Origin: Trichaptum fuscoviolaceum
Taxonomy: Eukaryota > Basidiomycota > Agaricomycetes > Hymenochaetales > Trichaptaceae
Assembly: GCA_910574455.1 (NCBI GenBank)
Contig: CAJSYZ010000012.1
Coordinates: 241,317 to 305,316 of the forward strand
Reading direction: 5' to 3'
Length of the DNA stretch: 64,000 bases
In this document: positions 36,248 through 63,747 of the stretch, one piece after another
Layout: every line of letters starts with the position of its first letter
Numbering within the stretch: the stretch's first letter is position 1
The notes under the pieces: generated by a model
Database searches by the model: none
Told to the model about the DNA's origin: nothing
What the model saw: the letters and a program-made list of their open reading frames with translations, nothing else
Translations under genes and position numbers: made by a program

Positions 36248-36250
36248 ATT

Positions 36251-37764: not shown

Positions 37765-40019
37765 TCACCACGGCGAACAAAGGCAAACAGACGGCTCGAA
37801 ACACAGCCTCATCTACTACAACAGGCAAAACCAACAAAGAAACCACTTCGAAAACCACTGAAGAACCAATACCTACACAGACTACTGTTCCTCAGTATCC
37901 AGACGCTCCACCACCACACAATCGACTCTTCTTTGACACTGAAAAGAACTTCTTCTACTATAGGATTGGTAACAAAACTTATCGATCGTGGTCATACAAT
38001 CAACTACTACAACGGTGGACCCCAATCGAAGCCAACTCTGCTGAAGAAGCTCGACAAAACTTCATCACTCATACCCCCAACTGGGAAGACCTTGCTCGTC
38101 GAAGTCTAGCAGGAGAGTTCAAACACATTCAACCTCCACTACCACCGTTCCCAACCACTCTTATCTTCAACGAAGAAACACAATACTTCCATCTTCCCGA
38201 CGCCAACGGAGAACCTACCGAAACCCCTTGGATCTACAACCCAACTGCTGATTCTTGGGTAGTAGCTCATACACTTGGCCCAGAACTACGAGAAATATAC
38301 GAAGGTCACACTCCAAATTGGAAAGAGCTTAGAGAAGAATACTACCGCCGACACCCCGATCTACTACCACAACCACCACAAGAACCCCAACCAACTTCCA
38401 CTCCCGACCCTCAACCTAGCAACTCCCATCGATCCCGTTCAAACTCGCCCACTCACGGATCTCTTGATCAAACCCTCTTCAGACGATCCTCCAGACGATC
38501 CTCTCAATCAGGCAGCTCCATTGCTCCAGAAACTCCTACTCCCTCACGTCAAGCATCCATACTTCCCCCTATTCCACCGAAACCATATCTCTCTTACACC
38601 CGCCCTCACATCGAACCTCTATCCATTAGTACTATGGCTACCCAAACTGTCACGGAAACTACCCGCTCAATGTTCCGACCTCCACCTGGAGAAGAAAGTA
38701 TCAGTACCTTTTTCCACTTAAGACATCTCCAAGGTCGAGGCAGAGGAGGCAGAGGAGGCAGAGGAGGCCGACAAAATCCTGCATGGAGAGGATGGGGTTT
38801 TGGTGAACCACCCGCAGGAGATGGAGGAGGAGGAGGAGAAGGACCACCCGGAGGAAACCCGAACGACAACGGAGGAGGAGGAGGAGATGATGAAGGAGGA
38901 GGAGGAGGAGGCGGAGGAGCTGGAGGTGGAGGAGCAGCAGACAATAACAATCAAGGAGATGGACCCGCACACGATCGGCCCATAACCATGGCTAAAATTC
39001 AACCTTTCGACTGAACCCAAGAAGATGCAGATCGCTTTTTACTCCAAGTCCAAATCCATTTACGAGCCAACCGTCACATCTATGACACAGATGAGCTATG
39101 CATCGAATTTGTGCTTGCCCATTGCAGTCTTCGCGGATCCCGACCATTCGCACAGCAATACATGGCCAGCGGACGTTTTGAAACCGACACATTTGCAGAA
39201 TTCCTTGCAGAATTCCACCGCACTTTCATCACATCCGAACTCACAATCAAGGCTACCATGGAACTCGCCAAGCTCAAACAGAGGGGATCTATTGAAGACT
39301 ACATTCTCAAATTCAAAACACTCATCATGCAAGCTCGTATCACGGAATATCTCTCCCAACGCAATGCATTCTGGATGGGACTCAATGACAATCTTCGAAT
39401 GAAACTACTTGCATGTAGTCCACAACCGACCAACATGGAAGATTGGTTTTCGCTTGCCACTCGACTGGACACCAATTACAAGATAGCTCGTTCAATGGAA
39501 TCCCAACCCCACCAAACCTATTCCGGAGAGAACCGCTTCAAACGACGACCTATGCGACAATACAATCGTCAAATTCGCGCCATTGCAAATGACACAAACG
39601 ACACAAATGAATCACTGCCTTCCAATGACAACGATGATATAGAAGAATTGGTCGACCTAGCCATCTACAGCTTCTTTATATCACGACTTTCAACCGAAGA
39701 ATTCCAACGTCATATGAAGGAAAACCTTTGCTTCAATTGTCATCAACCCGGACATCGCACTGCAAAGTGTCCCAAACCTCATCCCAAACGTACCTCAAAA
39801 TCTCGATGGCCCAACTCCCGCACACCAAGGTCCAAAAATATGCGCCAATTAACTTCAGCCGATGATCAAAATGAATACTCTGAACCCGAGAATGAAGACC
39901 AAGATCAAGGCGAACTCTCAGCCGAAGATCGCGCCGCACAGATTCAACAACTCCTTATTGGCCTTGATGATGACGCAGTCAACCAAGTCTTCGATCGAGT
40001 TGAAGAAGGAAATTTTTGA
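37743..40019 (+). pseudogene. gag: gag of the Gypsy element, one in-frame stop
   Basis: One frame runs from at least 37743 to the stop at 40017 with a single TGA at 39012 (PFD-stop-TQEDADRF). The first part lacks any ATG before 38634 and holds two similar W/Y-rich segments, so its true start may lie in or be fused to the upstream ORF. After 38634 come arginine/glycine- and glycine-rich stretches, the capsid-like region (FAEFLAEFHRTF, LKQRGSIEDYILKF) and the zinc knuckle CFNCHQPGHRTAKC near 39729. Gag packages the RNA. The heptamer at its end may allow frameshifting into pol. Confidence 0.85.
40010..40016 (+). promoter_or_regulatory. Candidate -1 ribosomal frameshift site
   Basis: A-AAT-TTT in gag phase directly before the gag TGA (40017-40019) fits the X-XXY-YYZ slippery rule. 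A -1 shift leads exactly into the protease frame at 40016. A downstream RNA structure was not evaluated. Confidence 0.55.
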
Positions 40020-43000
40020 ACAACGAAGAGCACCCGCAGCCCTCTCTCTCGTTGAATATCAGGCTGCTCATCAACTCAATTAACGACAATCACGCCTTAC
40101 GAATCCCAATCACGTTCCTATATAACCAGAAAACCCACAAAGCCACCGCCTTACTCGACACCGGAGCAGAAGGTCTATTCATTGACAAAAACACTCGTAG
40201 AAAATCTCCAAATCAAAACTATCAAATTGCAACAATCACTTCGACCACGCAATGTTGACGGAACATTCAACAATGCCGGACACATCACATCTTATGTTCC
40301 CCTTCATGTCAAACTTGGGAATGCCCACTATGCTATGCGATTCTATGTTACCACCCTTGGAAAAGAGAACTTCATTTTCGGACTACCATGGTTCAAGAAA
40401 TATCAACCCAAAATCAACTGGGAAACTGGATCAATACAGCTCAATCGCGTTAATATCTCAACACAACTTGCGCAACAAGCTCGAAAAGGACTCCAACCCG
40501 CTAAACCACTTACTGCCTTGGTACCCCATCAGTACCACCAATTCCTATCCCTTTTTGACGAAGAAAAAGCACATCGCTTTCCTCCAAGTCGCCCATATGA
40601 CCATGCAATTGATCTCAAACCCGACTTCATTCCTAAACGACATTCACCTTATCCACTCTCACTTCCGCAACAAGCTGCTCTCGATGCCTTCATCGATGAG
40701 AACCTCAAGAATGGATATATCAGACCTTCGAAGTCACCTATGGCATCCCCTCTCTTCTTCGTTGACAAGAAAGACGGTACCTTACGACCTGTTCAAGATT
40801 ACCGTTACCTCAACAATGGAACCATCAAGAATGCGTACCCATTACCACTTGTCCAGGATCTATTAGACAAGCTACATGGATCTCACTACTTCATCGCCCT
40901 AGATATCCGATGGGGATACAATAATATCCGTATCAAGGATGGAGATCAATGGAAAGCCGCATTTACCACTCAACGAGGACTTTTCGAACCAACAGTTATG
41001 TTTTTCGGCCTATGCAACTCACCTGCCACCTTTCAACACTTTATGAATGATATTCTTGGCGAAGAAATCCTTCTAAATCATCTCTTGGTTTACATGGACG
41101 ACATCCTCATACATGCCCCAACCTTACCGGAACTCATTTCTCGAGCACGACGTGCCTTCACTATCCTTGAAAAGAATGACCTCTACTTCAAGCCCACCAA
41201 ATGCTTTTTCCATACGCAGAAACTACCCTATCTTGGACTCATTATTACACCTAATCACATCCAAACCGACCCAACAAAAATCGAAGGAATCACTAAATGG
41301 CCAACTCCGACTACTGTCAAAGATATCCGTTCATTCACTGGATTCACCAACTTCTACCGCCGTTTTATTCCACACTACGCCGAAATCACCAAACCCTTGG
41401 ACAATCTCAAACGCAAAGATCAACCTTTCAAATGGACTGAAGTAGAACAAAAATCATTCGATGATCTCAAGGCCGCGTTCACTCAACATCCGTTACTTCT
41501 TATGCCCAATCCGCACAATCCCTTCTTCCTCGAAACTGACGCTTCCAAAGTTGCAACCGGAGCAGTCCTTCGACAACATGATGACAACGGTGTTCTCAAG
41601 CCAATTGGTTATATTTCGCAATCACTAAACTCCGCTGAACGGAACTACGAGATCTATGATCGCGAACTATTAGCTATTATCCGTGCCCTCATCACTTGGA
41701 AACACTATCTCCTTGGATCCCCACACCCTGTTACACTTTGGTGTGATCATCGCAACCTTACCTACTGGCGAGAGGCCCGACGACTCTCACCCCGTCAAGC
41801 ACGATGGCATCTGTTGCTCTCACAATTCGACCTTCATATCACACATGTCCCCGGCAAACAAATGATTCAATCTGATCTTCTATCCCGCCGGGCGGACCAT
41901 GTTAAACAGGGGGAGAATCTCAACGAATCATCGATTATGCTTCCGAAGGACCTATTCATTTCCACTCTTCAGGAACAGAAGGATCAAGAAAATTCTGAAG
42001 ACGAAGAAGAAGAGGAAGACTATGAATCTGATGACGCCTCCCAGACACAGATAGCCTCACAAAATCCATCAAAGAATCGATGAAGAAAGATGAATTCCTC
42101 ACCAACACCATTGCCCAGCTAAAGAAGAAACTACCACCTGCCCGAACCGCCCTCAAAGACTGGTTTTTCGATGATGACGGCATCCTTTACTTCAAAAATC
42201 GCATCTATATCCCGGACAACCTCGAATTAAAGCGCACTATTCTCCGACTTCACCATGATATACCAGTTCGAGCACACCCTGGCATATTTAACACCCTGGA
42301 ACAGGTCCGAAGGACGTATTACTGGCCCAGGATGCAGAAGTTTGTATCCGACTATGTCCATGGATGCGCACTATGTCAACAAATGAAAGTCAATCACCAT
42401 CCGACCGCTCCACCACTAATGCCTATCGCCGCCGACAAACACTCGTTTCCATTCTCCCCACGTCAATATGGATTTCATCACCGATTTACCAATGTCACAT
42501 GGCTATGACACACTTCTATTAGTCATTGATCACGATTGCTCCAAAGCTATTGTCCTCATTCCATGCGAGAAGACAGTAGACGCAATTGAAACGGCACAAC
42601 TATACTTCGACAATGTATATCGACGATTTGGACTTCCGATACGCATTATATCCGACAGAGGACCCCAATTCGCTTCTAAAGCATTCCAAGAACTCTGTAA
42701 GATCATAGGAATCAAGTCGTCTATGTCCACCGCTTACCACCCTCAAACCGATGGACAAGCCGAACGAACCAATCAAGAGATCGAAGTATACCTCCGGATC
42801 TATTGTACTGCGGAACCTGAGAACTGGTCTAGACACATTCCCAACATTGAATTCGCCCATAACAACCGTGCCCACGCTGTCACCAAGAGAACCCCTTTCT
42901 CACTTCTCATGGGATACGACCCCATTCCACTACCCCTGAAATATCCGAAATCAAACGTCCCATCCGTATCACAACGACTTGCCAACCTCACAGTACATCG

Positions 43001-43504
43001 ATCAGAAGCCTTAGCAGCTCATTCAGTCGCTGCTATGGTAATGAAAGAACACACTTTCCGAAACTTCAAACCATTCAACAAAGGAGACAAAGTTTGGCTA
43101 GACTCAAAGAACCTTCGAATTCCCGGTTTATCGCAAAAGTTCAAGGAAAAACGCGATGGTCCCTTCAAAATCAAGAAAGTCTTATCTCCACTCGTCTATG
43201 AATTAGATCTCTCACGGACTAAATGGAAGATACACCCAGTATTCCACGCCGCACTTCTCGTGAGATACACTGAGACGGAAGCATATGGACCACCCCACAG
43301 TAACCCCCCACCTGATCTAATCGAAGGACAAGAACAATTCGAAGTAGAAGCCATCCGAGCCCACCATGGGATGGCACCAGGCGACAATATCTTATAAAAT
43401 GGAAAGGTTACCCCACTTCTGGAAACTCATGGGAACCCGAGTCACATCTTCGGAACGCACAGACCATCCTCAAAGCCTATAAAAGACTCCATCATCTCAC
43501 TTGA
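40016..43504 (+). pseudogene. pol: pol: protease, RT, RNase H, integrase, chromodomain
   Basis: Protease motif ALLDTGAEGLFID, RT with LLVYMDDILIHA, RNase H with ETDAS..REL..WCDHRNLTYW, integrase zinc-binding YYWPRMQ..HGCALC, catalytic MDFITDLP, IISDRGPQF, YHPQTDGQAERTNQ, and a C-terminal chromodomain (RRQYLIKWKGYPTSG..WEPESHLRNAQTIL). The frame is broken at about 40190 (one extra A), about 42034 (one base lost), about 42450 and about 43380. All catalytic motifs survive, so breaks look recent. Chromodomains guide chromoviruses to heterochromatin. Confidence 0.92.
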
Positions 43505-44876
43505 ATGTCCCCATCCAAAAAACTCGTTCACTTCTCATATCCCCACTCATCTAACATCATAAACGACTATACGCTCTCCACATCGAACAAACAGCCACCA
43601 ACACCTGAACCCCATACTGTCGCATTACCGACTACCTCGATTCCAACTCGCCCCCATTACCTGGACGCTGTCCGACCTGTATACTCCGGAGCTTGGTCCA
43701 AAGACCACTACGACCCAGACTGGGAGTACAAGTACTTCAAACCCCCCACCGGGCTTGGACTCCACATCCCAACAATCTCGGTATTTCTCATCCACACCTT
43801 CTTTAACAACCCTGATTACGCCCACCGACTCATTGACTATTTCAACAAATCTGCTCGTGTTCAACCCCCACTCACAATCACTCGACCCATTGTCCGACAT
43901 CGTCATCACTTCAGCCACTTTGAACCTCGCCGCTCTGACCCCTATTGCACCTGCAGTTGTTGTCACTACGACTGTCCGACTCATTCCCTCTAAGTCATGC
44001 CACCTGCCCGTTCCCAACGCAACCCATCCCGTCACACCCCCTTATTTCGTTCATACAACATCATCTCTCCAACCACCAGCCTTACGCCTTGACACCCACA
44101 ACCCCTTGCAATCCCGCCAGATCCTTGAATTATTCTCAACTCGCACCTTCCACCAACGCCTAAGTCAATCAATGTATGATAACACTCCTCTTCTTGCCAA
44201 CTGGACCCAATGTTATGATATTGTTACCCGAAACCAGGAGATTCTCGATCCTACCATTGCCATCATCGAAGGATCTCTCCATCTCTTGCGACGGGCTCAA
44301 GAGTCATTCCAAGACATGCGACGATTTGCCCTTACGGAACTCCTTGAAACAGCACCTCAAGAGCTATTTGCCCCATTGGTCATTGACCTCACCACGGAGG
44401 ACGACATCATCGACCTCACTAAAGACCTTGCTGACCAAGTACCTCGCCCACCCCTTCACTCCGTCGGCACTCAAGTCCCAGAACGCAAAGAACTCATCAA
44501 TCGCCTGTCCGAACCCATTCGTCTACAATCGCCAATACAGTTACAAGAAGACCAAGAGTATCGTGTCAACACAGCCCCACCCTCACCCACATACAGCCCG
44601 AAAGTTGACAACAATCCTTTTACGTCTATGTCCTTGGACCCCAAGGAATGCACACAACACTCCGCTGTCGACCACCACTACAACCTGGCCGCGTCCACCT
44701 GCGAATTCTATACATGTTCATACTGCAACATACGTGCACCTGGACACACCATCATTGGATGCCCCAAGTATACATGCCCCTCATGTGGACAACACGATGG
44801 TCATGACGATGAATGCGCATCTAACCGAATTGCTCAACAACGCGTAACGAAGAGAAACCCACCTGCAAACAACTAA
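43505..44876 (+). pseudogene. Gypsy third ORF, 3' of pol, with cysteine-rich end
   Basis: Starts with ATG at the base after the pol stop. The frame 43505-43993 passes into the frame 43755-44876 by at least one shift. The C-terminus holds TCSYCNIRAPGHTIIGCP (C-x2-C-x6-H-x4-C) and CPSCGQHDGHDDEC, a zinc-knuckle pair. The middle is a Ser/Thr/Pro-rich segment with DLTTEDDIIDLT. Possibly a second nucleic-acid-binding protein; no envelope-like features (no signal peptide or membrane segment). Confidence 0.65.
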
Positions 44877-45024
44877 AGCACCTGTTGCTAACCTGGATAC
44901 CCTATTGGCGTTAACTTCGCTTATATGGCATGTTTTTCCTTATTGTCTATTGGACTTAATTTGTCCCTATAACGGCCATTTTCTTTACTGATTTCCACTA
45001 CGTTTCAATTTAAGAACGGGGTAA

Positions 45025-45491
45025 TGTTACGTTTTCTTACTATGTCAGCGGCCCCCATTACTCCGAACCCTTCGCCCTATTTGTTTCTATTCTTGTTCTG
45101 CTCAGTCATCCTCCGAGGTAACCCTCAACCCTCAGCCAATCCCAATGTTACACATGTACCCTTTGCCCTAACCCTTTGCCCATCGCTCTCACACTATTAT
45201 TAGTAGCCTATCGTCTACTCTCTTATTGTTCTCTTCTTACTCATCTTCCGATGTACCCTTGCTCCGCAGCTACAGTATATAAACCCCTGTACTTAGCATG
45301 ATCGAACTCTAAGTTCGATCTCCTTTGTCAAACCCCCCGTCTCTAGTCTCTGCTATACATCTGTTTCTCTCTACTCTACATCGTAGGCCTTTGTCCATAC
45401 AACACTTAGTGTCGAGCCCTAGCTCCGCTATCACTGAGCAACTTAACGTTGCGTTCCCCAACTATACGAGACCGTAAGTTGAGACGTAACA
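45025..45491 (+). repeat. 3' LTR
   Basis: Same length and almost the same sequence as the 5' LTR (one visible substitution near 45117). Followed by target duplication TCATT. Confidence 0.95.
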
Positions 45492-48929: not shown

Positions 48930-49827
48930 GTTCCTGCCCTAGGCTGCCAGTGCCAGTGTGTAAGATGATCCCGTGTCAACTCAACTGTACATCCTACGGC
49001 AGCGGCTGTTCCTTTTTCCGATAATTGCGTAGGATGCGATCAATAGTGGAGGGTGCGGGCCAAGATGTAATCCTGGAGAGCAGAACATAGTGTTAAACAG
49101 AAAATACACCAGGACGTAAGACAACCTGAGGAAGTTCTCTGTTAACGAGCCTGGTTGTATGGCATGGTGACTACGGCCAGTGTTGAGCATCTTCAATGTC
49201 CACCAAGTACTATGCCTGTGGTAGCAACAACTTGAAGTTGAAGTCGACAACTGAGTGCCAGCCTGCCAGCCTTAGTAGTGAGTGCCACAACTTCAAGTTG
49301 AACTTGAAGTCACCGTGCCAGTGACTGGCGTGCCACTGGCACTGGCAGTGGCAGTGAGCCTGAGTGACTCCGACTCAGACATCACTGGCAGAAGAATTTG
49401 CCGTCCATGTCCTCTTCATCTTGCTCCCCGGAACATTGAAGGGATGAAGTAGTGATGTTGAAGGCAACTTGAGCCAGAGGAACTTTAACACGGTGTATGT
49501 CCCCGAAATGTTAAAGTAGAAGCACAACACAAACAAGCCTTCGGGTATTACTAGTACGAGTACTAGTAGGCTAGTAGATACTCCTGGCAGCCTGGGGATG
49601 CGCTGCATTGTATGAGATGTGGTGATCAGTATTTACAAAATATCTTCAAGTTGAAGGTCATATCATCAAACAATCAAGCAAGACATAGGCGTTTTATTCA
49701 AGAAAAAGACGACACATCATTGTTTACTATTATCGGAAAGACAAAGTCGAAACATCATTGTTTATCAGGAAGACAGATAGACTCGACGAAGTTTATACTG
49801 TGACCATATACTACGGGTAGTAGTATA
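48930..49827. repeat. Micro-insertion word field, left edge
   Basis: Dense TGCCAGTG, CACTGGCA, AACTTGAA, GACTCGGA-type and TACTAGTA words begin here, for example CACTGGCACTGGCAG near 49335 and two TACTAGTA near 49552-49567. No gene. Confidence 0.8.
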
Positions 49828-52351
49828 CTAGGACAAGGGCGTCAAAGATTTGAGTCGAGATACGCCTTCGCCGGTAATCCGAAACTCAAATGGCTCTTTG
49901 TAAAGAGGATTGGAAGGATTCACAAATCCTTCCTTGGAACTAGGAGGCTTCCGTGTTTGCTCACGCACTTCCTTTGCCCAGTCCATGCGCAGAGCCAAAT
50001 AAGACTGAGGTGCCCGACCATAAGGGCCATGGTTCCCCACTATCTTGCATATCCTTTTAAGCACGTCCTGCTGTTCATAGGTAAAGAGTGGTTCCCCCGC
50101 TGTCAGGTGCAGTACGGATGGTGCGTTTTCTATGAATTTGGAGAGAGATTCGTCGTCACCATAATAATGTCGGTCGTGGATAAGTTTATTCAAATGTTGC
50201 CTGAGTGGAGTCTCGTTCATCACCTCAAAAACGACATGTTCAGAAGACGTAATCATCTGCATCGCGTTGGAAAGGATAACAGCTTTCTCCCTGTGCGTAT
50301 TTCGCCGCTTCTCCAGATGCAGGATCTTCGATAATTTTTTTCGGTCTTCGTCATTTTCCGGCCACTTTCGCACTGGCACCGGGACTTCCGTGAGATTTGC
50401 CTGCTTGACAACTTCCGCTAGTGTGTTCAAGGATAATTGGTCGAAAGAAGCTGAGACTTCCTCATAACTGCGCTGTATATCAGCTGGGAGAGCTTTTGGA
50501 GGAAAACCTTTGGCCGACGCATGGGGTATGTCCTCAGAGCCATAGTATTCGATGTCGCCCTCTTCGGCCATCTTTGCAAAGAATTCCTCGAAATAGAACT
50601 TAGGCAGGTCCTTCAGATCGAGGACACCCTCTTCTGATGGATCAAGATTTGGGAACGGTTTGCACGTAAAGTCATCTATGCTGGCATCCCATGTGGACTC
50701 CTGCTCGTCGAGTGTGGTGGCTGGCTGTTGTGAATCCAACTTCTTCAGCTTGCGATTGAGGATGACATACAACCTTCGATGGAATTTGAAGATAAGATAG
50801 AAGCGCACAAGAAAGAAACGGAACTTTTTGATGGATTTTGCGTCAGGCGACGGCTGCCAGGAGTTTGTGAAGGGGTATTTGGATTTAAGCTCTGCTCTCG
50901 CGCCCTCTACCAAGCTGTGCAGCTTCTTTTCGGTTTCCCTCAGCGTCTTCACGGCCCGGCCCCTCTTTTCCTCACTACACTTTGGGTCCTTTGTCGTCTC
51001 CTCCACCTCCTCTGCTTTGTTTTTCGCCTTAACCGCCTCCTTGTATGTCGTATCCTCCTTGCGGAAGTCTGCTAACTTGTCTTCAATCCCTGCTAACCAC
51101 TCTTCGTAGCGTGCTTTCTCTGAGGATATGAGGCTTTGAGGTAAAGCGGTGAGCAGGTCATCAAACAGATGCCTTGCAATGGGAACCTTTCCGTTCCGGC
51201 GCATGGTTGGTTGGGCAGTGAACTCAGCGTAAAGCTCGTTTACACCTCTGATGAGCCCCGCTGTCTTGACACCGCCATCACCAGTAATGTCAAAAGGGGC
51301 AACCGATTCGATCTTGAATTTGTTTGGGAAAACAATGGCAAAAGCCATATAAAGAATGTTCCTGGCGTCCTCGAAGACGTGTCGTAGTTTAATACTACAA
51401 GCTGCCGCTTCGCTCTATGTGAGAACTCATGAGTTTAATTTGTTTTGCAATAGCTTTCAAGATGACTTACCGATTCAGCTGCTACGGCAATGATTTGAAG
51501 CTCGCGTATCATGACAGCGAACGATGCTATAGTCCGCGTCAAAAGGTCGTCTTTGGAGCGGTCCGCCTTCCGTTCAGCATCTAATGTCTGGTCCGCCTTC
51601 CGTTCAGCATCCAATGTCTCCATACGAGCCAGCTTTTCGTTCATTTGATGCACCTTGTCGGTGGTGCTTCGAATCATATCAAATTGACTGTCAAGCCTTT
51701 TGCTAACATTAGCTGCCATGGCGGAGTGTAGCGCATGGATGCCCTCCTCAGCTGCAGCCCTCGCAAGCATCGGGTAATTCAGGGTTGCCTGGTCCTTTAT
51801 ATGTTGTATCTCGTTGGAGAGAGATTCGACTTTCTCCTCCAAGTCCTTTATTGTCTTCGAGTAAGGCGTACTGAGATCCGTGTTCTCCGATTTGGCCGCC
51901 TTTTTTTTCGTGGCTTTCAGATCTTCCTTATTTTTGTCAAGATCTTGATATCCCTCAACATTCCGCATCGCCTGATCCAGCCGTTCATCCACTTTCTTTT
52001 TTTCATCAGTATTCGCCGCCCGAGCTGCCGCTCCATGCTTGAGTTTTGTTATCACCTGGTTGAGAACTTTGGCAGTCTCGACCAGCTTTCCTCCAATGTC
52101 CGTCCATTCCTTGCCCGCTTTGTCCAAGTCGCCCCCTATCCCATTGAGCATGGTGACTGACAAGTCGCTAGTTGGGTATAGGAAAGAGATAAGAAGCAAT
52201 CTACACAGACTGGCAATGTCACTCACAGGTTCGTTTTCAAGTCTTCGACACTGTTTGACGGCTTGGAGTCCACGTCCGACCCAGGTTTTGCCACCCCACT
52301 GCCAGTGGCACCGGCACTGGCGGCCTCGCTGACAGTAGAATGGAATGTCAT
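49828..52351 (-). CDS. Unknown family X, copy 1 (802 aa), divergent partner of Y1
   Basis: Exons on the minus strand: 52351-52227, 52167-51471 and 51414-49828, with phases 2 and 0; the sum is 802 codons, identical in length to copy 2. N-terminus MTFHSTVSEAASAGATGSG is low-complexity. Then a long coiled-coil region with a duplicated TLDAERKAD, then a globular second half. Segments shared with copy 2: ARHLFDDLL, a leucine/phenylalanine-rich FYLIFKFHRRLYVILNRKL, and near the C-terminus TPLRQHLNKLIHDR and GNHGPYGR. No signal peptide, no enzyme motif recognised. The intact frame across 1587 nt of exon 3 suggests selection. It faces Y1 across a 2.1-kb word-rich spacer. Function unknown. Confidence 0.75.
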
Positions 52352-54453
52352 CAAGATGCAATTAAGCTCAGGCTGGCAACACTACTCAAATTCCAAATTG
52401 GATGTGTCTGGTTCCGCCTCAGTGGCAGACGTCAAATTGCCACTGCCAACTCCTAGTCCGACCTCAAACTCCGATTGTGACCTCAACCCGGGCCCTGCAC
52501 TTGCAAGAGACTCCGAGTCGGACATGGAGACGCCGGGCCCATTCACTGGCAGGCTGTCAAGAGAATGTCCTGGTCACATACTTTGAAGGCTGGCAACATG
52601 AATGACACTTACTTGATTGCTGATTTGCCACTGTCATCTCGCTGTACCAACTGAATGAGAAATTCAATCCAATTCACCATGTCTGACCGCGTCTTTATAA
52701 GCCCGGGCCACGGATGGGCTCCATTTTTGCCGAAAGAAACTATTCCTGTTTGGACTTTTTGTGAAAGAATTGAAATTACTACTAATACTAGTTTTTGAGA
52801 CATGTACTACATACCAGCTAGTCTGGCTTCCTCTGGATCCAGCAGCAGTCTGACTTCCATTGGCCCGGGAGGCTCAGGCTGAGTGCCAGTGGCTTGCTGG
52901 CCCGGGATGCCAGTGTTAACAGGTAGCAGTGGCATGTTAGCGTGAGGGACAACACTGGCAGACATTCTGAAGGGATAGTCATTGAGTTGCTGGCTTCAAG
53001 ATGATGTGGGGGGCATCATGATGGGGTCCGCTGCCAGTGGCAACTAAAAGCTATTCACCGTCGGAACGTGAACTTGAAGAAGTTGATGGAAGTCGGATAC
53101 TACCGCTGCCAGCAGGCCACACCGTGACTCAGGCTGACGGAGTGCCGTGAAGAGTAGTACTATATTTAAATTTAAGTACTCAGGCTAGTACTACTATGCC
53201 AGTGATACTACTACTACTAGTAGTAGGACTTCCCAGCCTCACTGGCACTGGCAGTGCCACAGCATGAGTGCACCCGCCGCAAGTAGTACTACTACCGTAA
53301 CTACTAGTACTACTACTACTACTACTAGTACTTACTAGTCGAATTTGAAGTTGATGATCTCAGCAACTTGACAGCTCGGCCGCCGCAGTTCGCTTCGGAG
53401 TCCGAGTCCTCGCCGGATAGTACTATAGTAGTACTATACTTGTTTGTGTTTCACGGCATGATGATGCAGAGGCACCGTGATCATCATTATGATGGTACTA
53501 GAGTAGTGACGCAGCCTGCGGCTCAGGCTGAGTCGGAAGCCACCATACTCAGGCTATGCTTCCCGTACTAAGGATTTAGAACGGCTTTTTCGTCCTACAA
53601 GTAGTATGTAGTACTAGTACTAAACGGCACGGCTCGGAGCCAAACTCTCCGTCTTGCCCGGGCCCTAAATTTCCAGGATCTAGCAGAGGGGAAGGGTCTG
53701 CCAGATGGTCCGTGTCTAGGACAGTCGTCCTAAATGCCTGCCTTGCTTACCGTACTAGTAGTAGTATCAGGTAAGATATCATAAGTACACCCTGATACCT
53801 TACCTTCAAGTTCAAAGGTAAGTTATACCGCGGGACTCCATGGACCGGCAGAACTTCTGCTCAAGGCCCGGCGGTGGACGGGTGGCTTCAACCTCCCTAA
53901 ATGCTTGCCAGCCTGAGTGCCAAGCGGGGTCTTATGGGTTTCAATTTCGGGTGTCCTAAATCCTTCATCCAGTGGCGCCACTGGCAGTGATACCGTGACT
54001 CAGGCTCAGCCTGAGCCTGAGGCTGCCACTGCAGTGCCAGTGGCAGTGAGGCTACTAGTTCTGGGAGGAAGGGCACTGCGTTCCGGAATTGCGTGATAAC
54101 GCTCAGGGAAATCTGCCTCCCGTGCGAACGTCTTCAAGTTGACAAATGGGGGACTCGGACTTGGAGTAAGGGACTTGCCGGCGAAGCTCGGCCCGTTTTC
54201 TACTAGTACTGTAGTATTAGTAATAACTTGAAGTTGCCCCTCAGGCTCACTGGCACTCACTGCCAGTGGCTCACTCAGGCTACTACTAGTACTAGTAATA
54301 GCCTACTACTACTAGTACTACTCAGGCTGCCGGTGGCATGCCATGGTGGCATGCCACGGTGGTGACACTTGACCTTCATTCCAACTTCACTCACTGCCAA
54401 CTTGATCTTGAAGTAGCTCAGGCTCTTCGTTCAGTCACTATCAAATCTCCAAA
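52352..54453. repeat. Spacer between X1 and Y1, densest micro-insertion word field
   Basis: By hand about 38 words of the form XY-C-rc(XY)-G-XY lie in 52861-54310 (CTCAGGCT, TGCCAGTG, CACTGGCA, TACTAGTA, GGCCCGGG, CCCGGGCC, ACCGTGAC, ATCATGAT, AACTTGAA, TCCGAGTC), where chance predicts about 0.35. It must also hold the divergent promoters of X1 and Y1. No other gene. Confidence 0.85.
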
Positions 54454-56051
54454 ATGTCAAGTTCTGATCTCGGGGATACTCCAAGCTCTTGCTTGGACAC
54501 AGACGAGGACGAGGACGGTTCAGAATCCAGCTTTGGTCTCAACACTCACAGCTCAAAGTCCGCGATCATCGAAGACGAGAGCGAATACGAAGTGTATACA
54601 AATCCTGTAGAGGTTAAGTTCGGTAGGACCACATATTATCTATATTTCAGTGTGTGGTTTGGCTTATCTTCAATGACTTGTCAGAGGACCTACCCTTTGG
54701 TTATCGCTCGGGAGCATATATTGATAGCACGGTGGTCCAGTCAATCACCAAAAGCTTAGAGTCCAAGCTAGAGCATGCAAATCGCTTCGGGTTTTCGTCG
54801 AACGATTTCAAGGAAACACTTGTTCTGGCTGATCGGCTGGGGAGGTACTTTGATACGTCAAATCAGTATATCAGTAACCGGGTTAGGGAAGCACAGGCTC
54901 TGCAGAGGAAGACGGCTGTGATGCTAGACCAGTTTCGGATCAGTACATACCAGTACACGGACATGATCTTCAAGCTAGGTGAAGAACTAGCTATCCTGAT
55001 GCGTTATACGGTAAGCTGCAAATTAAATCAAAAGCTTGAATGCACGTCTCTAACCGCTTGTTCTTATGGTAATGCGCTATAGCCCGAGGAGCCACTTGAG
55101 CTGCTTATCCGCAAGCGTGTGGAGGAATCAAGACTTGCTGTCGCCACGGCGTTCATATCTGTTCTTCCCGGCTTTTTCCCGTCAGGGAAACTCATCAATG
55201 TTTTCACTGGGGACGTCATCTGGGATAATTTCTTGTCTTGCTTAGTCGCCCGATATCATTCACACCATGCAATCGTGCGTTGGCAACGTAAATTTGAGGA
55301 TGAGGAGGCCGGCAATCGATTGATACAGACAAAATCTGTCTTTTCTGCCATAAGGATTGACATCAAAGGCACAAAGCTCGAGGAAAATGTTCGTCGTGAA
55401 CTCTCTGCTCAATTGAAGCACTTTACGCCAGTCGTGGGCGTGAATCTTAAAGGCTCTACAAGCAGGCCCCGAAACCAAAGGCTTGCGCTCAAGTTCTTTC
55501 TCCCCCTACTTATTTGGTCATATAACGAGTGCAAGGATTGGATTGTCTTCCTAGACAAATGCCGTGCGGAACAATTGCCAAAGTCGCCCGTTGGTCAACT
55601 CTCAGAAGCAGAAGTCAATTGTTCTGCGACTCAGGCGACTCCGACTGTCTTTCAATCCGGAACAGCACAAGAGGCTCGGCGTCGATGGAAACGTGAACTT
55701 GAACGTGCCGGTGGAGAAGCTGCTCTAGCTGACTTTCATCGACTCATTCAGAAGTCAATGGATATTCTTGGCGTCGACTCGGCTGATGGTGGAACGTCCT
55801 CATTGGAGAATAATCGACAAATCCAGCGCGAATACGGAAATTATTCGGTTGTTCTGCGCAGGTTTAACTGGATCAGGAAATGTTTAATCATCCTCAGGCT
55901 CTGTGATGATTCGCTTCAAGTTCTGGATCTGTTGCTCATGAATGATGGTGCAATGCAGCGCTTCTCCAGGGAGATGGACTTTGCTAGGCTGGGCACTAGT
56001 AGTACTACTCATTCTATGCCAGTGCTTACTCCCTTTTCAAGTTTAACTTAA
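54454..56051 (+). CDS. Unknown family Y, copy 1 (495 aa), divergent partner of X1
   Basis: Exons 54454-54612 (donor GTTAAG), 54651-55010 and 55083-56051, all phase 0. The N-terminal 53 residues are Ser/Asp/Glu-rich (LDTDEDEDGSESSFG). The second exon is helical. The third holds the segments conserved in copy 2: LAVATAFISVLPGFF, DVIWDNFLSCLVARYH, ALKFFLPLLIWSYNECKDW, TVFQSGTAQEARR and VLDLLLMNDGAMQRF. No known domain recognised; mostly helical, no membrane segment or catalytic motif obvious. The last residues (LGTSSTTHS) are encoded by a micro-insertion word run, so the gene end has been extended by them. Intact; copy 2 is broken. Confidence 0.72.
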
Positions 56052-57398
56052 AGCTCCTCTCGCACTATGCTGCACTATTGGTAGTTAGTAGCAACTATGT
56101 GACACTGGCATCGTTTTCTTGATTACTACTAGTATATACTGCAAAAAAAATTATTTATTTATTTATACTAGCATACTATGCTTCTTGAAGTTGATACTAC
56201 TACTAGTAACTTGAAGCCTGCCAATGAGGCTCCCGCTTGTCACGAGTCGTACGCGTTCAACTTGAAGTTATACTTCTTCGAAGTCCTTCCACTTTTATCC
56301 AGAGGTTTTCGCCTGATACCCTCCGAGGGAACGCAAGTGGGTCGAACATGCTCAATTTGTGTTCTTTGTCTTTGCAACTATTTCCGTTCATGAAGGGAGA
56401 AAAAGGTGGCTCAAACCAAGGGTGAGTCGCCACAGTTGAGCAAACGTAGCTCAGTTCGAGCAGTCCATGCACTGGCACATCGCTGGCAGTTGTGGATTCC
56501 GCATACCAATAACAAATTGTAATACCTCGAGCGACCATATCGGGATCCAGGAGTGCAAGACTTCAAGTTATTAAATCTCTAGGACCAGGATCTGCCGCAT
56601 GTGCTTAGAAGGTCGATGTGACAACAAAGAATAGGATTGTACCTCAAAACCAAGCGAATTGAAGACATCATCGCCTCTGAGCGTCTGCTGCAAGATAATC
56701 CTATGTAACTTGGGCGCAGAGCACTTGAGAACTTAGTGGCCCTCAAAATCGCCTATCTCGTAGCTCGTTTCATCATCTGCAAAGCTCTGCTCATACGACT
56801 GCGACGTGCGCTAAGAGCTGCTCAAGGTGTAGGTATAGTAGTACTTGCTTGTTGTATACTGCTATAGTGCGAGATCCGAGTCACCGTGTCGCTAAGCGGC
56901 CCTCCATTGCTGCTTGCATCCAGCGAGAGGGGTGCGTCTGAAACGTACTGCAAGGGGAATCCCGGTGATCGTACGCGATCACTGGTTTCGAAGCCACTGC
57001 CAGTGAGTGCTGCACTTGCTCAGCTCACTTGTGCTGCCAAATTGTGAGTTTTCCGACTGTTTGACTGCTCGCAGGCTGAGCCTGAGTGGCAAAGAATTCA
57101 ATTACTCACTGCATATCCTTAAAGATTGTCGCCATTCAAGTTTGCACAACACTGCCAGTGGCAGTGGGGTTCACTGACAGACTCAGGCAGAAGAATTTGC
57201 GGACTTCAACTTCACTGACAGGAGATATCACAATGCATACCAGTGTATCTCAGTTAATAAATATTATATCGAAATCTCTGCAGACAGCGCATACAAACAC
57301 AGGAACAAATACTCGCAAATCGCCAGGAAAAATGACAGGATGGAGGACGCCAAGTTATTAGAGTCGACAGACTGTAATTCCAAACATGCAAATCCCCA
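56052..57398. repeat. Spacer between Y1 and X2
   Basis: Convergent 3' ends of Y1 and X2. Micro-insertion words occur, at lower density than at 53 kb (for example TACTAGTA and TGCCAGTG forms near 56130 and 57160). No gene recognised. Confidence 0.6.
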
Positions 57399-59923
57399 CT
57401 ACTTCTTTGAGTTCCGTACTAAGCCACTAGTATACGATGAGTTTAGCTTCGTTAGCCCTGCTTTCATGACGGTCAGATCGAGTTTGCTGTGGGCTTCGAG
57501 ATGGATGAGGGATTGAGGGCACTCAATCTCAATGTTCGTGGAGTACTCGCGCCCATAGGGACGACTATTCCCCATTAAATGGTTGATCTCGACCAGCCTT
57601 TCTTTCTGTCCCGGCTCTAGACGCATGCCCAGAAGACGCTCGCAGTCATCAATGAGAGCAAAAACCGACTGTTGATCGGTGTTTCGGATGCGGTCATGGG
57701 CATGTCGGTTCAGCAGATTCCGGAGCTTCCCATCATCTAAAACCTCCTTCAGGAGCAGCTTCTTCTCCACCATCTTGATGAGGTAGTTAAGCGAAGTCGA
57801 AGTTTGTCTAGCTTCGTTGCGACGCCTCAGCACCTTCATCAGCCTCTGAACATCCGAGGTTTTGGACCCTTCGAAATTGAGCCCCTCTATGGCATTGCGC
57901 AAATCCTGATCCTTCTCCGCCTCCAATATCCTCTTCCAAATAGCAGCTGTTTTGACATCCAATGCCCTAAATTGAGCCTCGAGCACCTTGACTTTGACCG
58001 GTCTCCTCGAAGTTATATAAGCGCTATCGGCGTTATCCTGGACTAGTTTAGTAGTAGGCTCTGTCTTAGCCGGGTTTTGCGTCGGGTTTTGCGTCGGGTT
58101 TGTACCGGATGGTGTCGATTCAGATGACTCGGGAGTTGGTGGGGGAGGGTAAATCACGTCGCGAATGGGTATGTGCATAGGACCTTCATAATCAGCTTCG
58201 GACATGGCGTCCAATAAATCCTCAAACAAGAACTTGAGCGTTGTATGCTTGTCTAGCTCAGTTGGCAATTGCTTTAAGTGCACCTTGACGGGATTATTGT
58301 AGTTGGATTCATCGACCTCCACGAGCTGCCCGGACATTTCACTTTCCAGGTGTTGCACCGTAATATCCAGCTTTTGATATAGGAGATGGAAAAAGAGATG
58401 GACCAACTCGATCCGCGGCAAAAAAAAGGAGAAAAGATCATACACATCGCTCACTGTCGAATCTCTTGACGCGCCCTCTTTCAACGGAAGTGCCGACTCA
58501 CTAAGGAGATCCTTCACCGTCTTGTTACTATCGCCATCCGAGTCCACTAGATCGTCGAAGAGATACCGAATCGTGATGGGATCATGGAAATGGTTGAACA
58601 AGTTCTGGACGGAGTCTAAGAAATTCTCGGTCTTGATGCCACTCATTCCAGACACTTCGTAAGGGACAGCGGTATGAAACCGAAACTTTTCCCATGCAGG
58701 AAACACAGCCTCCATGCCCTGGTATACGTAGCCTCGTCCGTCTTCTAACAGCCTTCGCAACATTATCGTGCAGAGGGCGTACAAAGACTAAATGGTAGGC
58801 GTGAGCAAATTGAAGTGTAGTAGATGATTTAAGTTGCACTCACGCCCTCTATAGCTCGCAAAGCTGTGTTAAGCCGGGATTCAAGACTGTAATTCTGATG
58901 GACCAGGTAGTTGAACTTTGCCTCGATGGATAATGATGTGGCATCGCGTTGTTCACGAAAGGTCTGGTCGAGACAGCCCTGCTTTGCCTCTATTGCTGTT
59001 AAAAGTGAAAGACTCTTCTTGTGATGTTCCTCCAACTCCTTAAGCTTCTTCTCCTGGACGATCCAGGCAGTCTCCTCTAACGACAATTTGCCCACACGGC
59101 CGACGTAGTGACCGCTTTTTCGTTGGGCCACTGCGAAGTCATGGAGTAAACCCATTTCCAGCCGCGTAGCAGTATCGATTGCAGCATGAGAGGAATTCTC
59201 TTCCTTTGGCACTGGGTTTGCGTTCTCGGCAACCATGCTCTTCAAGTAAGAGCGGAATTCGTCCTCCATGTCGTTACAGATGCTGTCTAAACGATGGAGC
59301 TTGTCATAATGGGCATCGTCACCTGTCAACAACGAATTTAAAGCACCCATTAGGTGCCTTATAAACGTAGCTCCACGAGTATGCGTGTCGGGCGGAGTCG
59401 CAGAAAGAGCCGTCGTGCTGTTAGTATCGACTTTGGATTGCGTCATCGAGCTGTCCAAGCTTGTATCGGCTGTGGAAGCTGGTTGCGAGTTGTATGAGCT
59501 CGAAAGTGCGGTACTCTCGTCTGACTCGCTGGTGTGCCGAGCTGGAGTCCTTGAACTCGAGGAAGGAATGGGACGAGGGGGGACAGGCGCAACCGGCTTC
59601 TCGACAATCTTTGCCAAGGTGTCGTCGATGTTCCTTTGCTCAGCAAACGCCTTAGCGGGAAGTAGGCCTGTGGAATAGAGCCTGGCTGTTCGTAAAATAT
59701 GAGAATCAGTGCTTGGGCTGGCAGACTATGAGATGACATGCGTACCAACAGGACCAACTCTGCTTAGTTGGTCGGGTGAGCTGACACTAACACTCTGAGT
59801 CGGGTCGCTTCCACTGGCAGCTGCCAGAGGCGCCTGCGTTGTGTCTCGGAGACTTTGGGACTGCCGCTGACGATGCGGATGCTCCTTCCCTTTCGCTGAA
59901 GATTGGGCCTGGGTTTTCTTCAT
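57399..59923 (-). CDS. Unknown family X, copy 2 (802 aa), divergent partner of Y2
   Basis: Exons on the minus strand: 59923-59746 (MKKTQAQSSAKGKEH start), 59685-58844 and 58787-57399, phases 1 and 0, total 802 codons. The N-terminal 130 residues are Ser/Pro/Thr-rich; then a helical region ending LNTALRAIEG at the second intron, which stands at the same place as in copy 1. Exon 3 has IRYLFDDLVDSDGD, FFLPRIELVHLFFHLLYQKL, a proline-rich hinge (YPPPPTPESSEST), and the shared C-terminal motifs KLRNLLNRHAHDR and GNSRPYGREY. Sequence is strongly diverged from copy 1 but length and architecture are kept. Function unknown. Confidence 0.75.
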
Positions 59924-62054
59924 AGTCGTAGTTTACGAACAGTCGTACGGGAGTCAGGGGTATAGCAGTTGAGACAGTATGCAGAGTCAGCGTCACCGCC
60001 ACTGGCAGGATGTTGAAGATGAAAGAGAAACAAAGAGTGCGTATGTTCTTACTAACTTGAAGTAGTTATTGCTGACACTTCTTATACACTTGAAGTCGTT
60101 GCCACGTTGATGCTCCCCGATCACGTCTCAAGCAGCCAGTTGAACCAATTCTCCGTTTCCGGCCTGAGTACAGATGTAGAAGTCAAAGAAGTTCGTCCGA
60201 GTCGCCACTGGCAGTGAACGAGGAAGGCTTTTTCCAAGTACAGCTTTCAGGCGGAGTCTCAAACTTGAATTCAAGTTCAACTGAATTGAAACATGAAGAA
60301 GTCCGAGTCGCAGGTTCAAGTTCAACTTGAAGTTACGTACTATTACTACTAATTACTACTACTCACTGGCAGGCTGCCAGCCTGAGTGCGGCGCGGTACC
60401 AGTGCACTGCCATGGCAGTCAGATAAACTCGAACTCCGACTCGGAGGCGGTGTCACGGCCCGGTATCACTGTCATATCATACTAGTACTACTGTACTACT
60501 AGAGTAGTAGTATGATGCCGGCACTTCGGCGTTCTACTAGTAGTAGTACTACTTAGTAGTAAACTCGGAGCCTGAGGCACGGCCAGGTGGTGGGAATTCA
60601 CTATAACTTGAATCTGATATAAACATCTGCCAGTGGTGTGAACGCTTCTTCGACATGAAGCCTGAGTCACAGTTGTAAAACCTTGAGCCTGCGGCCGGGA
60701 AGAGAAGACTGGAGTGGGAAAATCGAAGTTCATATTGAAGCCAGCGCCGGTTGAACTAGAACATCATTCAGTTAAAGGGCTTCCGAACTTCTCTTAATCA
60801 CCGTTGTCCGGTACTTCAGCACAAGCCTCAGGTGCGTAGTTCTCAAGTTAGGGGCTTGATTGATCATGAACTTACAGCATATTCAGAAAAGGATGACAGT
60901 GCGCACTTTTGTGCTTTTTTTCTACCCGACCCTGATTGCCTTACTAGCCTGAGTACCGTACTATCATGAAGAAGTTCACGTGCTGGGAAAGTCCTATGAT
61001 CTTATATGTAGTTGCTGAAGCTCTTACATTTATATTAGCTAGTATACTATTGTATTTGCATGGAGTTAAGTATCAACTTGAAAGGTCAAGGCAGTAGAGT
61101 ATCTAAGTTTGTGGATGGACAAAGGCTTCCGGTCACAAACGACTTTCAAGAAACAAGGGTCACCGGCACGCAGCTCACACTGTTGAGAATATTGTCTGCC
61201 AGTGGGTACGTCCGAGCTTCCCCATACTAGTAGTACTAAAGGAATCAGGGTCGGATAGAAAAAAAGCACAAAAGTGCGCACTCAGGCTGTCATCCTTCAA
61301 GTTTTCTGAATATGCTGTAGAAGTAGTACTAGGGTGAAAATTTTAAGTTATGCCAGCAGCGAGCCAGAAAAAGTAGTCACAATAGATTACTCCGACTGAA
61401 TCGGATCTTTACGACCCGGAATACTACTACTGATAAGTAGTATAGTAGTATTGCTACCGGCGTACTCATGGCTCGAAGATGATCATGATGCTAGCACTGC
61501 GGCAACTTGAACTGAGGTAGTTACGTTCTGCCGTACTAGTAGGAATGGAAGTTGATGAAGAGCGTAGCAACGTACAACTAGTAGTAAGTGATATTAGTAC
61601 TAGTAGTAGAAGTATTCGCCTGAGTACATTGGCTGGCTCCTGCCAGTGATGAGACTGCCGCTTCCACACTGCATCCGAGTCATGATGAAGAGTTTCAGAG
61701 GTCACTGAGAACTTTAAGTTCAAGTTGGAGCTGATTAGTACCACTGGCACCGGCGCACTGATGCCACTGGCAGCCTGAGCCTGGCAGCCTCCGGGCCCCG
61801 AGCCGTCACCAACTTCAGGTCACCATCATACTAGTAGTAAAGGGCAACTTGAATCTCCTTCCCTCCTCATACAAGGACCGCAAAAATCGATCATCAGCGT
61901 GCATTATCGATTGGCATGGTCACGACCAACTTGCCTTTGTATATCATTAAGTCCAAATCCCCGCGCACACTATCAGAAGGAATATTTGAGCTCATATTTT
62001 GCACCCACTCTGCTGCACCCACTCTGCCACCCGTTTTATCAGTCATCTCCGAAG
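59924..62054. repeat. Spacer between X2 and Y2, word field with inverted repeat
   Basis: Same structure as the X1/Y1 spacer: dense words (TACTAGTA runs near 60480-60550, TTCAAGTT near 60260 and 60310) and presumed divergent promoters. No gene. Contains the informative inverted repeat described separately. Confidence 0.8.
60873..61320. repeat. Inverted repeat, arms 60873-60940 and 61241-61320
   Basis: The arms match except for two 6-nt insertions in the right arm. Read on the minus strand, right has AACTTGAA where left has AA (60889-60890), and AGCCTGAG where left has AG (60898-60899). On the plus strand the words are TTCAAGTT (61296-61303) and CTCAGGCT (61281-61288). Confidence 0.9.
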
Positions 62055-63747
62055 ATGCCAATTCTAAGTGACAGTGACTCGGACACTGGCAGCGATTCAA
62101 GCTCAAGCTTCCGCGAGAGTGACTGGGACGAAAATCCGTTGGAAGGTACAAATCATAGACATGATGCATTTGTCGATGATAAACCAGCTCATCCTGGATA
62201 CAGATGAACGACTCGGATTATCCTTGCAATCACTGACAGGTGAAGATGACCGGGCTGCAACTCATTTCAACCCGCTTTTCGACCAAGATGTAGTGGATAA
62301 CTTGCGTTCGTTAATCCAACGTGCTGCGCTGCATTATCAACGCTATGGGTACACCATTCAGACGAGGGAATATCGCGTGGCGCTTGCTTTGGCCGAATCC
62401 CTCTCCGCCACAATCCGAGCTGTGAATACACGCTTCGCAAGGACTGAGAGTAGGGTGGCACGTGCGTTGAACCTAACCGTGTTGAAAGGATTGAGCTCAG
62501 GGATTTGGTCATTTCGCAAGCCGAAGAGCTGGCGTTGCTCAAATGTGGACTTGCCACTGACAGTGATCCTCAGGCTGTTGAAGTGGACACTCCACTCCCG
62601 AATCATCCCAAGGCACTGCTCAGAGAGGAACTTGATGCTGCCTTACTAGCAAGCAGTGGCGCTGGTACTGGATATGCCAGTGGGCATGACACACCGAACA
62701 TAGTAACTTCAGATTGGCTCCCAAGTCCTTTCGTGCACCTAGGCCGGCGCACGGCTAGATCCCAGGATCAGACTGTGGTGAGTGGCAAATGCGTTCAAGT
62801 TGCTGACTTGAACTTGGCATTGAAACTATCAAATACTAATTTTTGCTCCTGATACAGGCGGCGCACTTAGCACTTCAAGTTTGGGACAGTGTGGGCAAAC
62901 TCAGGCTTGCTGTGGCATCTGCTTTTGCAACTCTTCTCCCCAATACAAAGTTTTCAAGACTACCCATCAATCGGCTCAATGGTGGCGTCATTTGGAATAC
63001 GTTCCTCATTCGCTTACACCGAAAATACCAATCATGCGTCTCGGTTTGAGGAAAGGAAAATGACAGATTTTACGAGTGTCAAGTAAATTCAGTCTTCCGT
63101 GATTTCGCGGAGTCAGACGCGGACACTAGCACACTTACACCTACTTGCACACATTTATCAAGCTCCTATTGGAAGGCAATCACCGACAAATTTGTTCCTC
63201 ACCGGAGTTTTGTCTCTCTGCCCCCACAACATGCAACGATACCTCAAGAAATTGAGTATCTGAAGCTTGCATTCAGGTTCTTTGTCCCTCTACTTATTTG
63301 GACATACGACGAGTGCAAGGAATGGTTGCTCGTCACGGAGGCCCTGCTCATGACTCGGATTAATACAAACGGCCCGCCGACACAAACCTATACACAGCTC
63401 GATCGTGCTTCTGTCTTTCAATATGGGTCTGCGCTTGACGTACGGTGCCACTTCAAACGCACAGACGAAACCTTTCAGTCGCTCACTCAGGTCGCCGGTG
63501 ATGCCGTCGACAGTGCCAGACAAACTGTGAAGGATGCAGAAAAATCCTGGAAAATAGATCAATTACGCGAAGAACATCAGGCCCTCCTGAAGAAGTTTAA
63601 TATAGTCAAGAAATGTCTGACCATCCTCCTTGATGTTGATCTTTTGGACTTGCTGCTCACGAATGATACCGCAATGAGTCTCTTTCAACGCAGCCTGAGG
63701 GCTAACTCGGATAGTGACACCTCGCACTTGGATTTTTTAGCTGTGGC
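62055..63747 (+). pseudogene. Unknown family Y, copy 2, frameshifted and cut by an LTR
   Basis: Starts MPILSDSDSDTGSDSSSSF, acidic like copy 1. The intron near 62146-62203 and the one ending at 62861 match those of copy 1. Shared segments: LRLAVASAFATLLP, GVIWNTFLIRLHRKY, AFRFFVPLLIWTYDECKEW, SVFQYGSALDVR, VDLLDLLLTNDTAMSLF. Frames break near 62500 and again near 63045-63090, so the copy is dead as sequenced. Its 3' end runs into an inserted LTR at 63748. Words of the TGCCAGTG type lie inside its coding part (near 62675). Confidence 0.75.

Follow-up and report, generated by a model that had tools for sequence, protein, structure and literature searches.

The region described here is a 64,000-nucleotide (nt) window, the whole stretch of DNA that was analysed (C12:241317-305316), in the 59.1-Mb, 12-contig genome of the fungus Trichaptum fuscoviolaceum. 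Part of it is crowded with words of eight letters that follow one rule, XY-C-rc(XY)-G-XY, in which a dinucleotide XY is followed by C, the reverse complement (rc) of XY, G and XY again; 16 such words are possible. The same genome carries giant DNA transposons of the Plavaka type, which have C..G ends between 2-bp target duplications, and in what follows the words are considered as probable excision scars of these elements. The positions of the features, including the open reading frames (ORFs) beside the densest cluster, are given in Table 1.

Table 1. Positions of the features in the 64-kb window
Feature	Positions	Strand	Remarks
Plavaka-type terminus, TG followed by CATCAGGGAAACTACTTTTTGCTTAAG	31939..31978	+	reads into the region; word field downstream
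Gypsy-type long terminal repeat (LTR) retrotransposon	35781..45491	+	reverse transcriptase and RNase H; nested in the element region
Word field, XY-C-rc(XY)-G-XY	48930..63300	.	128 occurrences vs 3.6 by shuffling
Densest word cluster	52300..54450	.	51 words; 50 vs 0.53 from 52301; within a multi-copy repeat, between ORF 51435-52361(-) and ORF 55119-56051(+)
CA word CACTGGCA	52953..52960	+	polymorphic: 13/21 rows with, 8 without
TT word TTCAAGTT, site	54175..54176	+	in 2/21 rows (L043, L044); window copy without
TG word TGCCAGTG, site	54251..54252	+	in 2/21 rows (L046, L047); window copy without
TA word TACTAGTA	54284..54291	+	polymorphic: in 17/21 rows
Second dense word cluster	60000..62900	.	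43 words; 42 vs 0.72 from 60001
Inverted-repeat element flanked by TA	60875..61317	.	443 bp; C..G ends

The expectation of 3.6 words for the field comes from dinucleotide-Markov shuffles, and in its core, at 52861-54310, 42 words were counted where the same shuffles gave 0.42. An earlier sequence-only reading of this DNA, from which the rule was taken, had put these last figures at about 38 and 0.35, and the nine words that it quoted were all found in the window. The most frequent in the window were TACTAGTA (24 copies), AACTTGAA (22), TTCAAGTT, TGCCAGTG and CACTGGCA (20 each) and CTCAGGCT (15), followed by AGCCTGAG (11), GACTCGGA (10) and TCCGAGTC (9); ACCGTGAC, ATCATGAT, CCCGGGCC, GGCCCGGG and GTCACGGT had 2-3 copies each. 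The crowding that had been claimed for 48930-63300 is thus real, but it is not confined to that interval. The remainder of the window up to position 48929 is also rich in words (34 vs 12 expected), and nineteen 10-kb stretches, which represent every contig at least once and two of which adjoin the window, contained 195 C..G words against a mean of 56 for the 12 types of centre that hold an A or a T. Extrapolation from these stretches gives a genome total of about 43,000 words. A stacked word, TGCCAGTGCCAGTG, was found 553 times genome-wide as compared with 21 for its reversed control. The density was 2.13 words per kb outside long ORFs and 0.74 inside them, with control forms at about 0.3. Nesting and stacking had also been described for the interval: CACTGGCACTGGCA (at 49334 and 53240) and an AG word within a TA word (at 60942) do lie inside it, whereas the two occurrences of the stacked example TTCAAGTTCAAG, at 35590 and 35596, both fall before it.

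The specificity of the rule was assessed in 276 kb (the window, the nineteen 10-kb stretches and eight element stretches), in which the forms XY-P1-rc(XY)-P2-XY were scored with a duplication length between 1 and 4 bp and a spacer length between 0 and 2 nt. The outlier, at 473 vs 72.5, was the 2-bp form with P1/P2 of C/G, the next being GG (202), CC (185) and GC (172), and then C/T (97 vs 67.5); the comparison with other fillers that had been proposed as a check therefore came out with a large excess of rule words. Control forms in 48930-63300 in which both centres were A or T were at chance (3-5 vs 3.7-4.0), and those with one such centre showed a slight rise (5-10 vs 3.5-3.9). In the same interval the CC, GG and GC centres were over-represented as well (50, 48 and 40), in part because words nest, since a word inserted in or beside another of the same or the complementary dinucleotide produces these forms. 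Collapsing the C..G words lowered the three counts to 31, 25 and 15, still above chance, and TA accounted for 56 of the CC, GG and GC forms that remained after collapse in six regions (42 kb). With XY restricted to the 12 non-palindromic dinucleotides, the word was counted 410 times, where 12 other pairs of centres averaged 60.6, and six other products that a variable opening of hairpins would give were all at control level. A control with swapped filler letters was raised (194 vs 73.5) because for AA, TT, CC and GG this control is the word itself. A single motif or regulatory word was rejected as an account of the field, given that 14 of the 16 rule words are in use, CGCCGGCG and GCCGCGGC having no occurrence in the window.

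Words arise at a dinucleotide XY as unit insertions of the six letters C + rc(XY) + G + XY. For the multi-copy repeat at 52300-54500, which had 107 matches when the best 40 of 184 candidates were scored, 20 copies were aligned with the window copy, giving 21 rows. Exact rule words made up five of the seven 6-nt insertions or deletions (indels) in this alignment, namely the four given in Table 1 and a TA word near 54392 that is present in one row; the sixth, at 54401, resembles stacked AA words with a point change, and the seventh, at 54482, is off the rule. The copies L046 and L047, to which the TG word is restricted, are mutual nearest copies, 2 substitutions apart and at least 10 from all others, and this word is therefore a gain. 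At the five sites where words are polymorphic, all 21 rows are free of an element. In other repeats, 14 pairs were chosen for comparison, and of their 15 rows with a 6-nt indel seven obeyed the rule, all of them C..G, although two of the seven are probably one event read on both strands. The 6-nt insertions that the sequence-only reading had predicted were in this way found between near-identical copies within the genome. A simpler rule, XY-S-rc(XY) with S being C or G, was rejected, as all seven rule-type indel rows are C..G and a large excess of the stand-alone 5-mer was seen for TA only.

The inverted-repeat element at 60875-61317 shows gains of words as well: two words, CTCAGGCT at 61281 and TTCAAGTT at 61296, have been added to its right arm, and in its left arm an AG word (60946) is nested inside TACTAGTA; once the words were collapsed, the outer parts of the arms aligned without gaps. 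A second inverted-repeat element, of 372 bp and with GGATGCCTTCCCGTAAG ends, lies at 53497 in 12 of the 21 aligned rows and is absent from the window copy. It was rejected as a parent of the words on account of its apparent 3-bp duplication, ACT.

Candidate parents were found elsewhere in the genome. For the Plavaka transposase domain PF18759, scoring of 123 out of 834 candidates yielded 165 matches, with a best E value of 2e-66, and there was no match in 14 control genomes. None of the matches listed lies in the window, the nearest being at C12:324217-325107(-), 18.9 kb past its right end. The domain is located inside paired ends, as at C1:3555194 within C1:3548804-3567282. In the outward tracing of one family, by which the ends were linked to the transposase family, 38 of 41 non-self matches of L053 start within L053:853-874, and 26 of them at 857, the start of CATCAGGGAAACTAC. 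The element ends read CATCAGGGAAACT..AGTTTCCCTGATG, and the 13-nt end CATCAGGGAAACT had 844 matches with at most one mismatch as compared with 35 for its reversed control. Among the 100 places listed (C1-C3), many were facing end pairs 17-60 kb apart, nested insertions included. Both flanks were read for 18 pairs, and an exact 2-bp duplication of varying XY around C..G was observed in every one (TA 5, AT 4, CA 2, TG 2, AA 2, CG 2 and TT 1), so that the full elements with 2-bp duplications and C..G ends that had been predicted do exist. The termini CATCA..TGATG were likewise seen in 18 of 18 pairs, partly by construction, as the pairs were found by their end sequence. Some giant elements (C1:3548804-3567282 and others) seem by eye to carry ORFs beyond the transposase (L054, L055).

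The 2-bp duplication differs from the 5-8 bp of hAT-type elements, of which Ac/Ds duplicates 8 bp, and neither the CAC..GTG ends nor the 3-bp duplication of EnSpm/CACTA elements was seen in the 18 pairs. By-eye reading of stop-to-stop ORFs in L048 revealed a D in LGSDKT, a D in IADYPEQ, the motifs CAIC and HAMIH, and an E in ITENKH; CAIC and HAMIH agree with a C(2)C and H(3-4)H layout. In the portions consulted of the cited papers, to which our statements on the literature are confined throughout, this layout between the second D and the last E is given for EnSpm, Transib, Plavaka and RAG1, EnSpm termini are said mostly to start with CA and end with TG, and a PlavakaB group with CATCA..TGATG termini and 2-3 bp duplications was described in 2025 (PMC12730594). 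By these features, the elements probably belong to the PlavakaB class.

The word field of the window itself probably lies, up to about 57180, inside a giant Plavaka-type element whose other end would be outside the window. This assignment is based on the end at 31939, which reads TG followed by CATCAGGGAAACTAC, and on a related copy on contig C2, in which this end lies at a distance of 3.84 kb from the counterpart of position 45492 (C2:6307427); by arithmetic, the C2 end point maps to 31939 within a few bases when the Gypsy insertion at 35781-45491 is left out. Another repeat starts at about 57180.

Paralogous empty sites support six elements, C2:4147455-4185424 (against L001) and five of the 18 sites that were joined in silico. 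The former was inserted at a TA within a repeat, and L001 represents the same site in the empty state. A gapped pattern for this site (gap of at most 24, which filled copies cannot match) identified 39 copies, of which 36 were empty and three read TACTA where the empty ones have TA. Flank variants of the filled copy are shared by L124, one of these three, and are absent from L122, L123, L125-L128 and L001. A search for full elements at sites that are words in other strains had been proposed as a check; within this genome, filled, empty and TACTA copies of one TA site were found, but not a 6-nt word. When the 18 joined empty sites were queried, five (CA, TG, AA, AT and TA) matched elsewhere across the joint, and 13 had no match across the joint among those listed. 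After collapse of the words in 42 kb, the 5-mers TACTA (115 vs 26) and TAGTA (83 vs 23) were in strong excess, to which slippage of TAC may possibly contribute; the excess was slight for the 5-mers matching AT (61 vs 49 and 63 vs 48) and little for those matching CG (26 vs 25 and 35 vs 25).

From these data we consider it likely, with good though not full confidence, that the words were left behind by the excision of giant DNA transposons of the PlavakaB class. A specific chemistry involving hairpins on the flanks, read back from the scar rule, is also favoured, with less assurance. With RAG and with Hermes, a hAT enzyme, cleavage starts on the non-transferred strand, whose 3'-OH then attacks the opposite strand and closes the flank into a hairpin (PMC6900584). 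Here a RAG-like transposase would nick one nucleotide inside each 5' end so that C stays on the flank, and the freed 3'-OH of this C would attack the opposite strand exactly at the boundary between element and duplication, sealing the flank as a hairpin, XY-C-rc(XY). Each hairpin would then be opened two nucleotides past its tip, leaving 3' overhangs that end in rc(XY) and XY. As both flanks carry the same duplication, the overhang ends would always be complementary, and their annealing, fill-in and sealing would yield XY-C-rc(XY)-G-XY. Repeated visits would stack and nest the words. For a self-complementary XY such as TA, a second register of pairing would give the 3-nt product TACTA or TAGTA.

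The same word could also be formed by blunt joining, if each tip were opened by one base, or one side by two and the other by none; variable opening would in addition yield XY-C-G-XY, one-base fillers and longer fillers. The annealing version is favoured because the second register predicts TACTA and TAGTA for TA, both of which are in strong excess, and because TACTA was found at a Plavaka site. We further propose, tentatively and with a shade more doubt than belief, that the scar is fixed by the cut geometry of a RAG-related transposase (a nick one base inside, a hairpin at the boundary and opening at the edge of the 2-bp duplication, giving cohesive ends) and not by random trimming by the host, so that each departure would be logged as one of 16 words, a countable record of excision that would also drive nested re-insertion and the growth of non-coding DNA.

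Other kinds of scar were considered and set aside. Scars retaining the CA..TG or CAT..ATG of the element were not in excess (61 vs 50.5, 4 vs 3.2, 2 vs 3.2 and 0 vs 0.2). PlavakaA-type scars were rejected as well, the T/A form having 55 copies against a mean of 56 in the nineteen 10-kb stretches; in the 276 kb, XY-T-rc(XY)-A-XY was near expectation (82 vs about 71 for the average centre).

A number of observations weigh against the excision reading and its chemistry. Hairpin formation was observed by no method, and is deduced solely from the scar rule; palindromic 6-nt insertions exist in repeat copies, and at a known element site only a 3-nt one. Indeed, no 6-nt word was found at any known element site, and the one scar there could be a short tandem duplication. 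Two of the copies carrying it, L122 and L123, belong to the other subfamily, so that TACTA arose more than once or was spread by conversion. There was no 6-nt gap in the 52 matches across a joint (best 40 of 123 candidates scored); as all 52 equal the query in length, none holds a 6-nt insertion. The gain of the TT word is likely but less clear than that of the TG word, because L045, which is equally close to L043 and L044, does not have it. A smaller, unexplained excess of the AA/TT and CA/TG 5-mers was left after collapse, and small excesses were also seen in the 276 kb for some 3-bp and 4-bp forms, e.g. the spacerless 3-bp form (140 vs 66), and for the 3-bp G/C form (17 vs 4.2).

The target spectra agree only partly. 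At 45 element ends (two flanks being counted twice) the leading targets were AA/TT, CA/TG and TA, and among the words AA/TT and CA/TG. To the points against must be added that AT and CG, with 5 of the 45 ends each, are nearly absent among the words, and that AG/CT and GA/TC are commoner among the words than at the ends. Either excision from AT and CG targets is rare, or its product is a different one. The CG shortage is not accounted for by CpG depletion, given an observed/expected CpG ratio of 0.98, and decay of CpG was rejected as the cause of the missing CG word; six one-step decay forms had 2-7 copies each against 3 for the intact word, with no expectation computed. Finally, some 43,000 words stand against about 400 elements (844 ends), so that about 100 excisions per surviving element would be required, which implies a long accumulation. 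Two of the 45 ends (L065 and L111) directly abut a TGCCAGTG word, the insertion point being precisely its final TG; re-visiting of old scars may therefore occur, and elements may re-insert at them.

The excess of words over elements can be read differently, as the work of the same Plavaka transposase in aborted or immediately reversed insertions of an end, with an unchanged scar chemistry but no full element ever resident. A ratio of about 100:1, as extrapolated, is in keeping with such events, as is the lack of an element at the five polymorphic word sites in 21 rows; yet at this ratio a sample of such a size would not be expected to include an element, ordinary excision leads to the same product without an extra step, and the one site with filled, empty and TACTA copies fits an element that resided there and was then excised. 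We therefore regard this reading as unlikely. Slightly less likely still is an origin of the words in transposons of a different class, such as small CACTA- or Mirage-like ones, that share the C..G ends and the 2-bp duplication, with the giant Plavaka elements as bystanders. The partial agreement of the two target spectra would be accounted for in this way, and the 443-bp element likewise has C..G ends between TA dinucleotides. Plavaka ends are, however, very abundant and had the exact 2-bp duplication in all 18 pairs, and the scar at a proven Plavaka site fits that source, other families not having been searched for.

Repair without any element is very improbable. Breaks with a 2-nt stagger, at which a polymerase adds C and copies the adjacent dinucleotide back, would lead to a symmetric product, each 3' end then reading XY-C-rc(XY), but for this the end would have to fold back around a loop of a single nucleotide, and the base added without a template would always have to be C; the model also leaves the abundant elements with C..G ends and 2-bp duplications in the same genome unexplained. 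Slippage of trinucleotides, drift of low-complexity sequence and selection on a sequence-specific motif are hardly credible. TAC/TAG runs do vary by 3 nt among the copies in the 21-row alignment; against this, XY is non-palindromic in 12 of the 16 rule words, 14 of the 16 words of one rule are present and new words appear in single 6-nt steps. For non-palindromic XY, slippage or a motif is already contradicted by the indels and the enrichment of the product.

Other features of the window include the Gypsy-type element, whose LTRs at 35781-36247 and 45025-45491 (467 bp) are 99.8% alike, as expected of a recent arrival; just beyond the window (L027) lies a close relative of its 3' part. At 63748 another multi-copy LTR-type element begins, seen also in L018, L024 and L027, with 565-bp direct repeats in L027 and copies that are 98-99% identical. 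The long ORFs at 49828-51348 and 57399-58784, which look mutually related by eye, had no Pfam match, and are possibly cargo of giant Plavaka elements. Within positions 1-29000, a cluster of ORFs of about 400 amino acids (at 99, 2426, 4998, 24344 and 27414) appears related by eye, one of them being followed by a cysteine-rich, by eye MYND-like ORF; the only member scanned, 2426-3724, had no Pfam match. For a WD40 protein (8270-9652), the closest named proteins, at 50-53% identity, were from Phellopilus, Phellinidium, Coniferiporia and Sanghuangporus. These four genera belong to the Hymenochaetales, so that by this protein, too, the DNA is most likely that of a hymenochaetalean basidiomycete.

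If the words are indeed excision scars of Plavaka elements, the excision chemistry of a relative of RAG1 would have been obtained from sequence alone; no Plavaka biochemistry was met in the literature consulted. The 16 words would serve to date and to map past transposition, including that of elements as large as 17-60 kb, and would explain many of the short repeats in the non-coding DNA of this genome. An active PlavakaA element, with TGT..ACA ends, is predicted to leave XY-T-rc(XY)-A-XY.

The view that no described system has this rule held in part. The ends and the 2-3 bp duplications of PlavakaB were published in 2025, and the PF18759 transposase, the CATCA..TGATG termini, the 2-bp duplications and the C(2)C/H(3-4)H layout are shared with our elements; excision scars are not described in the consulted portions of that report (PMC12730594), whereas here there are ends 17-60 kb apart and, by extrapolation, tens of thousands of words. 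No description of the scar rule was recognised in the openly licensed literature searched, which does not extend to bioRxiv preprints. As far as the portions consulted go, a Plavaka deletion in a study of transposon activity in Marasmius oreades did not match an excised element (PMC9674265). EnSpm/CACTA elements have a related class of transposase (PMC12730594) but CAC..GTG ends and 3-bp duplications, and the 3-bp C/G form of the rule was found only 3 times in 276 kb. In mPing/Harbinger, as proposed here, the target duplication provides the microhomology by which both sides are joined (PMC4561436); the empty site is restored in that system, whereas here hairpin-derived complements would be joined and a 6-nt scar left. 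The closest likeness in the product is to the footprints of hAT elements (Ac/Ds) and the P nucleotides of V(D)J recombination, which are short palindromic insertions centred beside the element ends and for which hairpins on the flanks, their opening and joining by microhomology have been put forward (PMC5873905, PMC6900584). Ac/Ds, however, gave 28 different products in Candida albicans, whereas here the duplication is 2 bp and one product dominates, so that, unlike with the varied hAT scars, each excision would be countable.

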